Below are positions 47,222 through 56,985 of a DNA stretch of 64,000 nucleotides, piece after piece. A model generated the notes under the pieces. It was given only the letters and a program-made list of their open reading frames with translations, made no database searches and was not told where the DNA came from. Source of the stretch: Beroe forskalii (taxonomy: Eukaryota; Ctenophora; Nuda; Beroida; Beroidae); the NCBI GenBank assembly GCA_011033025.1, contig WFMF01000077.1:372001-436000 (forward strand), given 5' to 3'. A program made the position numbers and the translations under genes. Position 1 is the stretch's first letter, and each line of letters begins with the position of its first letter.

Positions 47222-47700
47222 GCATATTATTCAATGAAATTTGACGGGTTTTGGAAGGGCTTTGGACGGGCTTTGGACGGGTTTTGGACAAGTTTTGGAC
47301 GGGTTGATGACGGGTTTTGGACTGTTTTTGGACGGGTTTTGAACGGGTTTCGGACAAGTTTTGGACGGGTTTTGGACGGGTTTTAAACAGGTTCATGACG
47401 GGTTTTCGACGGGTTTTAAACAGGTTCATGACGGGTTTTTGACAGGTTCATAACTTGGTTAAAACAGGTTTCGACAAAGATTTCGACAGCTTGTGACAGG
47501 TTGTGAACGGGTTCGTGACAGATAAAAAAAATTTTACGGGCAGGTTCTCGACAGGTTTAGGCCAGGTTATTGACAGGTCTTGAACAGGATTTCGATTTAC
47601 TTATTAGAAGATTGGGACGGGTTCTCAATAGGTTTTGGACAGGTTTGTGACGGTTTTAGACGGGTTAAGGACCGTTTTCAACTCAATTGAGACAGGTTTT
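47222..47700. repeat. GACGGGTTTTG tandem array (left member of an inverted pair)
   Basis: About 35 degenerate 10-14-bp units, mostly GACGGGTTTTG. The same array in reverse orientation occupies 55790-56145. Confidence 0.85.
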
Positions 47701-47733
47701 GACGGGGTACCGTGTGTCAGGAGGCCTTATCGG
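47701..47733. mobile_element. Element terminus with target-site hexamer (left)
   Basis: 27 bp beginning GACGGGGTACCGTGTGTCAG and ending GGCCT are identical to 56146-56172 in the same orientation. The next six bases, TATCGG (47728-47733), are the reverse complement of CCGATA that follows the other terminus (56173-56178). Confidence 0.85.
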
Positions 47734-47734
47734 G

Positions 47735-48308
47735 GTTGAGTGGTTGATAGATAAACAGATTCGATAAATTGGAGAAAGTTGAGATAAATCGTTGCGGAAG
47801 TGTTTAACTGCTCATCTTGCATAGCTTCCGTCATTGATGAACCTACGATTATCAGTGATGAAGCATTTAACATTCGGAAGGATCAACCAATGCCCTGAAA
47901 CGTAGGCAGAAGTTCCGACGTTTAATTCTTTGATTATTGACATGTTGCAACTAACTATTGAACTATAAATAAAGCATCAACGTCAAATGGAGGCAACTTA
48001 ATATTCTTATGCACCCGAATATCTAAGTAGATTAAATTAATTTCATATCGCGTGTACCGGCCATAGAGGAAAATTGACAAAAATTACGGTGTAAAGCTTG
48101 CTTAACAGACACCCCCAACGTGCCCTGTTACTCTGATTTTAGCATACTCATGATCGTGTAGGAATAACTAAACAGAGCTTCTCTTTCTCTGTCTTTCTCT
48201 CAACCGGAATCTGAACTGATTTCTAAAATGAACAGTGATTTTAAGGAGGCTGACCAGGGCCATCCCCAGCACGGTTCAGTCCCCCATTAATATCTCAGAA
48301 CATCTCAC
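47735..48308. other. No feature recognised
   Basis: AT-rich, no exon other than the DRC2 exon that follows. Confidence 0.45.
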
Positions 48309-48461
48309 CTTCGCGAGTTCGTTCTCTGGTTCCTGTTGGACCATCTCCTCAATCTCCTTCTCCTCGTTGGAAGTGAGGGTGCTGGCGTAGAAAGGCAGAA
48401 CCTTCTCCTCCTCCGTCTCCAGCTTCCGGCACATCTCAGATAGCTTCAGAATGCACTCTCC
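48309..48461 (-). CDS. CCDC65: CCDC65/DRC2 exon (minus strand)
   Basis: A 51-codon phase-0 exon, acceptor CTTATCAG, donor AAG|GTGAGA. It encodes [20 protein letters not shown] then [20 protein letters not shown]. It matches the human CCDC65 (DRC2) segment [33 protein letters not shown]. DRC2 is a coiled-coil subunit of the nexin-dynein regulatory complex of axonemes. The next exon of the protein is at 56910-56985 on the opposite strand, so the gene cannot be transcribed intact as assembled. Confidence 0.82.
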
Positions 48462-48562
48462 CTGATAAGATGTGTTAGGTTAGGAGGCACATCTCAGATC
48501 GCTCAGATAGCTTCAGAATGCACTCTCCCTGATAAGATGAGAACATGTGTTAGGTTAGGAGG
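48426..48562. repeat. Tandem duplication of the DRC2 exon start and splice acceptor
   Basis: Two copies of a 58-75-bp block hold the first ~25 bases of the exon, the CTTATCAG acceptor and the CCTCCTAACCTAACAC upstream intron. The extra upstream acceptor, if used, leads in frame to a TAA stop within about 18 codons. Confidence 0.85.
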
Positions 48563-49040
48563 GAAGTTCAATTTAAATTCGGTAGTTCAAACTCTATAAA
48601 TTTCAATGAAGCAGGAGAAAAAAGACCAGTCTTGATAATATATTAATCAGGTCATGCCTTTTTGCTCATAATAAATACTTCCGTTCCCAATTATCATCGC
48701 AATGGTGCTTGAAGGTCAAATAAGAATGTTTAGCTATTAACTAACTAACTAAATAAATTATCAAGTAATAATGATATTTGTCAACTTTTGCAGCGCTATT
48801 CTAAGATAAGCATTAATGGGGACGCCAAAAATGTTTCTTGCTAAGGCCACCCTGGCATCCTCGTGTTAGTTGTATGAAAATTTCCAAACTAAGAGAACTC
48901 CATTTTTAATTAGGGCATTTTCTCTCCCAGTGACAGATCACAGAATACCTCTTGTGGGTCGTCGAGCGCAGAATTTTACCACTAAATTTGGTCGTCACCA
49001 TCTCATGAATTTTTTAGCCATCCATTTTTTTCTGTAAATG
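48563..49040. other. No feature recognised
   Basis: AT-rich non-coding sequence between the DRC2 exon and the next satellite. Confidence 0.4.
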
Positions 49041-49845
49041 GTATTTCCTATCTGAATATGCCTCTAAGATCAATTAAATGTAATACAGTATAATTTGATC
49101 CCATCGGCCCGCCGCAGGCGAAAAATTTCATGGTACAGTATTTCCCATCTGAAAATGCCTCTGAAATCAACTTGCAATGTATAATTTGATCATAACAGCC
49201 CGCCGCAGGCGAAAAATTTCATGGTATTTTCCATCTGAATATGTCCTAAGATCAATTTTAAATATATAATTTGATCACAACAGCCCGCCACAGGCGAAAA
49301 ATTCATGGTGTTTCCCATCTGAATATGCCTCTAAGATCAATTTTTAATGGATAATTTGATCACAACGGCCCGCCACGAGCTAAAAATTCATGATATTTTC
49401 CATCTGAATATGCCTCTAAGATCAATTTGAGAATTTGTAATGTATAATTTGATCACAACGGCCCGCCACCAGGCAAAAAATTCATGGTAATTCCATCTGA
49501 ATAGGCCTCTAAGATCAATTTGTAATGTATAATTTGATCACAACGGCCCGCCGCAGGCAAAAAAATTTCATGGTAATTCCATCTGAATAGGCCTCTAAGA
49601 TCAATTTGTAATGTATAATTTGATCAGAACGGCCCGCCACCAGGCAAAAATTCATGGTGTTTCCCATCTGAATATGCCTCTAAGATCAATTTTTAATGGA
49701 TAATTTGATCACAACGGCCCGCCGCAGGCTAAAAAATTCATGGTAATTCTATCTGAATAGGCCTCTAAGATCAATTTGTAATGTATAATTTGATCAGAAC
49801 GGCCCGCCACCAGGCAAAAAATTTCATGGTATTTCCCATCTGAAT
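49040..49845. repeat. Tandem repeat, about 80-bp unit
   Basis: About ten units, each with AATTTGATCACAACGGCCCG, CCGCAGGC, AAAATTCATGG and CATCTGAATATGCCTCTAAG. Confidence 0.9.
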
Positions 49846-49849
49846 TTTG

Positions 49850-55010: not shown

Positions 55011-55239
55011 ACTCATGATGTGTCATGTTAATTATGTGTGACGATATGTGTAAAATTTCAGTGTCTTATTGTGATATTGACTTATTGATTCAATTTTCCA
55101 CATCAATTCTCAAAGGATAGTCAAATTTGGCAAGCCTTCTTCACATTTCCTCGGTGAATATCTTTTTTGAAGGAAAAAATCGTGTTTTAGTATTTGAAAT
55201 GAAGATCAATTTCCAGGACATTAGTCGATATGAAAACTT

Positions 55240-55545
55240 TAGTCACTGGGAATGTGGCACGGATGGGCCTGGTCAACGTATAAGATTAAAAATTTTGACA
55301 ACCGAAAGCTCCAAGAATTAAGAAATTCGTGATTTTGAATTGAAGATTTGTGATAAGGGGACGGACGGAAGGAGGGACATTTTCGCGACTGATATTATAA
55401 AGGAGCAATCCGGACACTTTCAAAAAATTACAGTAGTTGTATTGTAAACCTGGACCTGATATACACATATCCTATTTCTCACCTTCCTAAACCACGATCT
55501 CTGCCAACCCTCCTCATTGCCTTTTTGTATACACAAAAAGGGCAA
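55240..55545. repeat. Dispersed repeat DR1 (inverted copy)
   Basis: Reverse complement of 8613-8905. Confidence 0.7.
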
Positions 55546-55789
55546 TGGGGAGAGATCCTCTCCATTTTCTTCCCGTATATTATAACTTTATAATATGTAG
55601 GTAGATATGTCCTGTCTTCCTGTTCTTTAGCATTATTGCTTGTTGTCGTGGAATGAAACGACTTCAAAATCTCCTGCACAGCTCCACAGGATTGAAGAAA
55701 ATAGCTCGCGCATGGAGAATGTAACTCGAGTGTGTAACAAAAATTAATATAATTACATTCAATTAATATCACATCAAATGAACCAAAAC

Positions 55790-56145
55790 CCGTCCAAAAT
55801 CTGTTCAAAACCTGACCAAACTTGTTCAAAACTTGTCAAAAAACTGTCTTAAATCTTTCCAAAACCCGTCCAAACCCGTCCAAACTTGCATAAATACCCG
55901 TCCAAAACCCGTCTAGAATTTCTTTAAAATCTATCTAGAACCCGTCGCAAATCCTGTCGAGAACCTGTCAAAAACCCGTCAAGAACCTGTCTAAATCCTG
56001 TCCAAAACCCGTCAAGAACCCGTCAAGAACCCGTCGGAAATTTTTTTAAAAAATGTTGAAACCTGTTTTAATTCAGATCAGAACCTGCCCCTGACCTGTC
56101 TGCGAACCTGGCATTCGCCTGTCAACAACCTGTCCATCAAAAGTG
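55790..56145. repeat. CAAAACCCGTC tandem array (right member of an inverted pair)
   Basis: Reverse-orientation version of the 47222-47700 array, about 25 degenerate units. Confidence 0.85.
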
Positions 56146-56178
56146 GACGGGGTACCGTGTGTCAGGAGGCCTCCGATA
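56146..56178. mobile_element. Element terminus with target-site hexamer (right)
   Basis: 27-bp terminus identical to 47701-47727, then CCGATA at 56173-56178. If the region from within the left array to within the right array is inverted, the two termini become a TIR pair flanked by CCGATA on both sides. Confidence 0.85.
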
Positions 56179-56329
56179 TGTATCTATCAGCGGAATTATA
56201 ATCTGATTCGTAAGTTATTATAATAGGCCCTATAATAAATTATTTTTAACGAAGTCTGAGATAGTTTTGAATAGAGGGTCAAGGAAGTTAAACTTTCACT
56301 AAAAGAACCTGAGGGATCATCAGCATTGC

Positions 56330-56720
56330 TTATCACTTTCACCAGTCTGATGTATAACTGAACCAGTCTGGCGTGTCACTGACAGTTATGAGACCTATTA
56401 CTGACACCAGTCTGCATATTGCTGACGCTATAAGACTGACATGTGATAAATCGAAGTATCACTGAAACCAGTCTGACGTATCACTGACGCCATTCTGACG
56501 AAGGTAAGTAGGTATAAGGGAACCCAGTCAGACGATCCGCTTGATAAAAATGCTACGCCAATGTAGCATTTCACTGCCTCCAGTGGGACTTATCAATGAT
56601 AACGGTGACCTATCAATGATACCGGTGTGACTTATCAATTATCGTCTGAAGTATCACTTACCCTTGTCTCTCATGTGATACCAGTCTGCGAGTTGTTGAC
56701 ACCATTTTGATGAATTACTG
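56330..56720. repeat. Degenerate tandem repeat, ACCAGTCTGACGTATCACTG type
   Basis: Same family as 4020-4389 and 5170-5400, about 12 units. Confidence 0.65.
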
Positions 56721-56909
56721 ACGCCAGTTTGAAGCATGACTGTATCAATCCAGACGTAACGATGGTACCAGTTCAAAGAAATCGCTATTTTCAAGTACAT
56801 ATCTGTGTACTTATATATCATGACAGATCGGTAGTGCAATAAGAAAAAAGATTTAATTCAGTATTCAGTAAAAAATTTTCATCACAATAAGACTCTGTTG
56901 TTGTTGCAG

Positions 56910-56985
56910 GTGATGCTGGAGTTCGAGGATCTCAGTAACTTCTGGAAACGATTCAACAAAGTATCCCTAGACAAGCTATCCTTAG
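56910..56985 (+). CDS. CCDC65: CCDC65/DRC2 exon (plus strand)
   Basis: A 76-nt exon, acceptor TTGTTGTTGCAG, phase 0 in, phase 1 out, donor G|GTAATC. It encodes VMLEFEDLSNFWKRFNKVSL then DKLSL. It matches human CCDC65 [25 protein letters not shown], which directly follows the segment encoded at 48309-48461. The FWKR(F/Y)NKV block is the most diagnostic part. Downstream exons are not visible up to the window end. Confidence 0.82.

Follow-up and report, generated by a model that had tools for sequence, protein, structure and literature searches.

An extra partial copy of DRC2, with one half flipped at a transposon, lies beside the complete gene in a Beroe forskalii assembly

DRC2 Exons and Transposon Ends in the Window

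The window analyzed here is a 64,000-nt stretch of the ctenophore Beroe forskalii, positions 372,001 to 436,000 of contig WFMF01000077.1 (C880:372001-436000) in the assembly GCA_011033025.1. The assembly examined comprised 216 Mb in 1134 contigs. Two exons of the axonemal gene DRC2 (e1 and e2) were located on opposite strands of this window, together with the two ends of a transposon with terminal inverted repeats (TIRs), which is called T below. An earlier note on this DNA had taken the arrangement for a DRC2 gene split by an inversion. DRC2 is intact and not split; the exons in the window belong to an extra partial copy, which is an 8.9-kb internal piece of the gene with two exons, matching C880:452850-461780. 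The features are listed below with window coordinates, and L064 and L065 are T copies read elsewhere in the genome.

41829..42771, + strand: 325-bp satellite array (Tandem Repeats Finder), clean to about 42771; left neighbor of the corrupted junction
42772..43980, unstranded: corrupted homopolymer-rich stretch of ~1.2 kb at the expected left inversion junction, joining the satellite to T
43981..45333, + strand: interior of T, A side; L064 3964-5953 and L065 2641-668 align with 43416-45333
45334..47153, unstranded: repeat nested in T, absent from L064 between 5953 and 5965; includes a 251-bp tandem repeat
47154..47727, + strand: end A of T, with subterminal 11-bp array and 27-bp terminus (47701-47727); 92% to L064 5965-6503
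47728..54656, - strand: left part of the extra copy, flipped; matches C880:458519-452850
48309..48461, - strand: DRC2 exon e1, extra copy; 153/153 nt equal to C880:457782-457934, splice borders equal
54657..54720, + strand: short fragment of another repeat, which separates the DRC2 intron repeat from T; 32-mer from it with 15 genome occurrences at up to 3 mismatches, counting the window
54721..56172, + strand: end B of T, with interior, subterminal array (55783-56145) and terminus (56146-56172); 94.5% to L064 1527-68
56173..59397, + strand: right part of the extra copy; matches C880:458514-461741, 97.7% over 3252 columns
56910..56985, + strand: DRC2 exon e2, extra copy; 76/76 nt equal to C880:459251-459326, splice borders equal
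59398..62500, unstranded: palindromic repeat insertion inside the extra copy; 59416-60580 against 434472-433291 of the contig, inverted, 86%; flanking 224-bp direct duplication, 96%
62501..62763, + strand: last stretch of the extra copy; matches C880:461518-461780, 99.6%

The translation of e1 comprised 51 residues, and that of e2 was VMLEFEDLSNFWKRFNKVSLDKLSL. When joined, the two aligned without gaps over 76 residues to the DRC2 chains of PDB entries 9fqr (E 8.3e-23) and 8j07 (E 7.9e-21), corresponding to residues 343-418 in both structures. AG/GT splice borders were present on both exons. These alignments and borders bore out the identification of two DRC2 exons on opposite strands, which had been proposed from the sequence of the window.

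The Complete DRC2 Gene

A complete DRC2 was found on the + strand at C880:445406-465414, starting ~9.4 kb past the end of the window, and all ten located exon stretches stood there in order. The 453 residues joined from these stretches aligned to 13-466 of 9fqr and contained the Pfam domain NYD-SP28. The exon borders were placed by eye, without a transcript, and AG or GT signals coincided with most of them or stood only a few bases away. One of the ten stretches counts a TAG; the open frame starts just behind it, at the upstream exon edge.

The copy number of the DRC2 pieces was taken from the protein search and not from DNA searches. A DNA search with 62480-64000 missed the known 99.6% copy at C880:461518-461780, and thus absence in such searches proves nothing. 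Against the whole genome, the 453-residue protein gave 13 matches, namely the ten ordered stretches at C880:445406-465414, two in the window and one to DRC1 on contig C769. Among the 12 matches on C880, only the e1 (-) and e2 (+) of the window fell outside the ordered set. Genome searches with e1 and e2 found each of them twice, all on C880.

Because the complete gene stands at C880:445406-465414, DRC2 is not disrupted, and a disruption of the gene was ruled out as an account of the window. The earlier note, which had proposed such a disruption, had itself named an intact DRC2 elsewhere among the findings that would speak against it. The result guards against reporting a whole cilia gene as broken, and it points to a cheap test for claims of this kind: to seek the empty insertion site and a second copy of the gene, and to check the base quality across each supposed junction.

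The Transposon Insertion and Its Family

The 27-mer GACGGGGTACCGTGTGTCAGGAGGCCT ended at 47727 and at 56172, both times on the + strand. The bases next to it were TATCGG (after 47727) and CCGATA (after 56172), and simple arithmetic gives a chance of ~1 in 4096 for such a reverse-complementary hexamer. In the genome, the 27-mer occurred 79 times with up to 3 mismatches, and a reversed control pattern occurred 0 times in the same search. The identical termini and reverse-complementary hexamers reported earlier were confirmed, with the termini at 47701-47727 and 56146-56172.

The 6-bp target duplications were perfect in 10 of 11 T elements and carried one mismatch in the other. The elements counted were those with two exact ends in view. 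The remaining pairs of 27-mers are outside this count, and so is L015 (C236:315785), a third terminus which shares the hexamer of a neighboring element and has no separate partner end. Five of the 11 elements were short (0.7-1.4 kb) and six were long (4.2-12.6 kb). In the complete DRC2 the insertion site is empty, with a single CCGATA at C880:458514-458519, the exact point of T. The 11-bp arrays beside the two window termini oppose each other, as had been claimed before, with array motif counts of 17 vs. 0 and 0 vs. 12. In all eight complete T elements tested, of which three were long and five short, the two subterminal arrays shared one direction, and the opposed arrays of the window thus indicated that one half has been flipped. 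Target duplications, empty site and array directions together settled that the two termini are the ends of one T insertion, of which one half is flipped in this contig. This agreed with the earlier proposal of a single TIR element with one part turned around.

The mechanism proposed with it, recombination between the inverted arrays, did not hold. The window arrays are inverted and 70-90% complementary in the listed array pairs. However, because the arrays of a complete element run the same way (8/8), they became inverted to each other only through the flip, and the interior of T extends further than either array, reaching about 43.98 kb (across the nested insertion) on one side and 54721 on the other. 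The breaks are therefore located within T and in the intron repeat, and not at the arrays as the earlier note had placed them. On the A side, T was weakly traceable from 43416, and the window agreed with the columns common to L064 and L065 at 0.90-1.00 in the bins of 44000-45300. Within the nested repeat, 46294-47143 had ten full-length copies elsewhere (98-100%) among the matches listed. No intact piece of the window corresponded to the ~2.4 kb in the middle of T (L064 1528-3963).

Ectopic recombination between two inverted copies of T, or between their arrays, was also considered. According to the study on Galileo-mediated inversions of Drosophila (PMC2775673), recombination between two transposon copies should result in a pair of chimeric copies whose target duplications have been exchanged. 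The window held two half elements with the TATCGG/CCGATA pair of one insertion, and an empty CCGATA existed in the complete gene. This candidate was rejected, and we regard it as very improbable. The Galileo case resembles the window in that a TIR transposon is found where the rearrangement took place, and the history can be read from its target duplications; it differs in that here there is one split element with one pair of target duplications.

Apart from the rearrangement, a modest remainder is the family itself. T is a TIR family that produces 6-bp target duplications and carries 11-bp arrays in subterminal position, and the copies read look non-autonomous. No long stop-free stretch was found in the three T copies read, where the longest were 118 aa in L064, less than 120 aa in L065 and 141 aa in L066. 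Polinton/Maverick elements (PMC8097293) share with T the 6-bp target duplications and TIRs beginning with AG and ending with CT, whereas T is without the (AG)3 or (AGT)2 ends. None of the seven genome matches to DNA polymerase B (PF03175) fell inside T copies carrying the 27-mer. A Polinton identity of T was therefore rejected for now, and an autonomous relative may exist elsewhere.

At C225:884831-890712 (L011 and L012), a head-to-head pair of T ends is flanked by 1500 bp that are 99.93% identical in inverted orientation, and this near-perfect palindrome is due either to a fold-back artefact or to an inverted duplication in the very recent past. In L050 (C343), T diverges at the TTAA that matches window position 54721 and the neighbors differ, as if other elements insert there.

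Comparison of the Two DRC2 Copies

Identities in the left part of the extra copy were 98.6% (47728-48925), 98.0% (51473-53062) and 96.3% (53062-54656), and the homology of the two copies stopped at 62763/461780. The exons were identical in both copies (229/229 nt) with equal splice borders. Substitutions in the five aligned segments numbered 2/1187, 18/1583, 33/1593, 36/3204 and 1/263 positions. The ~1.2 kb around e1 contained only two differing sites, and the other segments differed by 1-2%. The counts of the first four segments were more uneven than a single rate predicts (chi-square p 8e-5); as judged from the alignment, this may be taken as weak evidence for alleles over paralogues. The same four segments contained 70 gaps vs. 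89 substitutions, a ratio that would fit residual read errors. Copy-specific insertions were found at 48926-51472 and 59398-62500 in the window copy, and one of ~1.26 kb at C880:454478-455737 in the complete gene.

One explanation for such a copy is a real, recent segmental duplication ~30 kb upstream of the gene, followed by the insertion of T into that copy and then by a two-break inversion, through which T was split and half of the copy was turned around. The copy would then be a dead fragment with 2/10 exon stretches, and DRC2 itself would be unaffected. Several insertions of 1.8-3.1 kb in the copy fit this explanation, as does a single T insertion with its 6-bp target duplication and empty site. 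The divergence does not, since two sites in 1.2 kb around e1 against 1-2% elsewhere is uneven for a dead duplicate.

The similarity of the copies, which are close enough to be alleles, also fits a heterozygous inversion allele of DRC2. Here one event would have flipped e1 and half of T on one chromosome, and the assembler would have put this allele beside the intact one.

The palindromic insertion is described here in its own right: at 59174-62763, 3.1 kb of 21-bp repeat arrays with arms 86% alike was flanked by a 224-bp direct duplication.

Junctions of the Flipped Half

A two-break inversion needs two sharp junctions that match crosswise. The right junction was sharp at 54656/54657, where the DRC2 intron repeat ends and is followed by the 64-bp piece and then by T from the TTAA at 54721. 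The join of the 64-bp piece to the intron repeat occurred once in the genome. Of eight other T copies compared at the TTAA, with L054 (inside L064) and L064 counted as one, six continued inward with equal or near-equal sequence, L055 showed several differences, and L050 carried other sequence.

The left junction would have to lie inside the corrupted stretch 42772-43980. The satellite to its left had 364 genome matches (92-95% among the matches listed), and its agreement with its own earlier units was 0.88-1.00 in the bins of 42500-42749 and then 0.30-0.62. The stretch 42772-43980 showed the top excess of identical neighboring bases among 3072 windows over 154 kb (z 7.1). To the right, the agreement of the window with T, binned by 100 bases over 43.0-44.0 kb, was 0.45, 0.44, 0.34, 0.45, 0.53, 0.68, 0.65, 0.76, 0.90, 0.60, and 0.99. 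It was thus about at chance in the zone 43.0-43.4 kb (0.34-0.53) and intermediate at 43.5-43.9 kb (0.60-0.90), so that the rise from chance level to 0.99 took ~1 kb and was uneven. On the homopolymer excess and this uneven rise, the stretch was read as a probably decayed consensus rather than an evolved junction. A second clean inversion breakpoint is therefore not in evidence.

For a segmental duplication, the sharp right junction and the sharp right edge of the copy at 62763 are favorable points. On the other side, its second breakpoint was not seen as a junction but only as corrupted sequence, and the middle of T, not found as an intact piece, counts against it as well. We consider this explanation possible, with the balance of evidence tipping away from it.

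A heterozygous inversion allele would likewise explain a right junction that is sharp and unique, and the copy stops on the left where an inverted allele must rejoin the common upstream exons. However, the junction expected there, between the DRC2 intron and the interior of T, was absent, with satellite and corrupted sequence in its place, and at its right edge (62763) the copy leads into sequence other than DRC2. This makes such an allele unlikely. The specific form in which a living inversion allele arose by one template switch through the transposon, with e1 flipped on one chromosome and the other chromosome intact, appears quite improbable. If true, an animal would carry an axonemal gene with a loss-of-function allele that is transposon-borne and possibly polymorphic.

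Origin of the Extra Copy

The explanation we favor, at somewhat better than an even chance, is that the extra copy represents the other haplotype, or a recent duplicate that the assembly failed to separate, of the 3′ half of DRC2, which was mis-ordered and flipped in the library or the assembly. We infer both the artefact, in vitro or in silico, as the cause and the allelic origin of the copy. The earlier note had named an assembly misjoin as its alternative, and it was right to do so.

The course of events might have been as follows. The extra copy carries T inserted at CCGATA, and the complete gene lacks this insertion. Copying of the right half of such T-bearing DNA would have proceeded leftwards until, within T, the growing strand switched to the intron repeat of the opposite strand; from there it would have turned rightwards, crossing the left half and entering T. 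A single fold-back template switch of this kind, or a chimeric read, could yield the observed order with a single sharp junction and without the middle of T; since one fold-back suffices, no second junction would be needed. The extra copy itself would stem from false duplication of a heterozygous region, and it is tied to the contig on its left through the ~1.2 kb of corrupted consensus.

Two known kinds of artefact are similar. False duplications in genome assemblies (PMC9516828) likewise include second copies that stand on the same scaffold as the gene, are partial and nearly identical to it, and hold only some of its exons, and a near-identical extra copy on the same scaffold is what the window contains. 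The window differs in its flipped halves, in having no N gap and in the other sequence between the copies. Inverted chimeras in multiple displacement amplification (PMC1855051) also have one junction, with nearby segments joined in inverted orientation and the middle lost. There, inverted chimeras with an intervening deletion made up 85% of 475 chimeras. In contrast to those, a chimera in a consensus contig must escape outvoting. Other oddities of this assembly were also counted in favor of an artefact, namely a frameshifted DRC1 (C769) and the head-to-head T ends at C225:884831/890686 with their 99.93% flanks.

Several observations weigh against a misplaced copy. At the right junction, two stretches of clean sequence meet in a sharp join. 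The right edge of the copy (62763) is also clean, and ~10.6 kb of other sequence precedes the complete gene, so that an artefact needs several wrong joins. No run of N was found in C880:342001-496000 (154 kb); the N gap of a false duplication is missing, and the corrupted stretch lies instead on the far side of the copy. The protein search found no second copy of the other eight DRC2 exon stretches in the assembly, and a second haplotype is not otherwise visible. The copies differ by several kilobase-sized insertions, which would also fit a real duplication. Finally, a raised homopolymer excess was seen in other windows of C880, up to 0.20 against 0.275 at 42772-43980.

DRC1 and Neighboring Repeats

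DRC1 was located on the minus strand of C769:610000-619999 (L007) and is without an intron. Its frame was shifted near residue 574-584, ~110-120 residues before the end, as judged against three relatives (P0001-P0003). Among the 120 matches listed out of 979 in the DRC1 search, the top nine (P0001-P0009) scored 73-95%, and a brittle star protein scored 59%. A ~3.4-kb repeat was present both at 26353-29808 of the window and in the DRC2 intron at C880:451057-455936, with about 95-96% identity. The window also contained, at 20044-22929, an array of ~182 copies of the 16-bp unit CATTCTCAGGAGTGTA.

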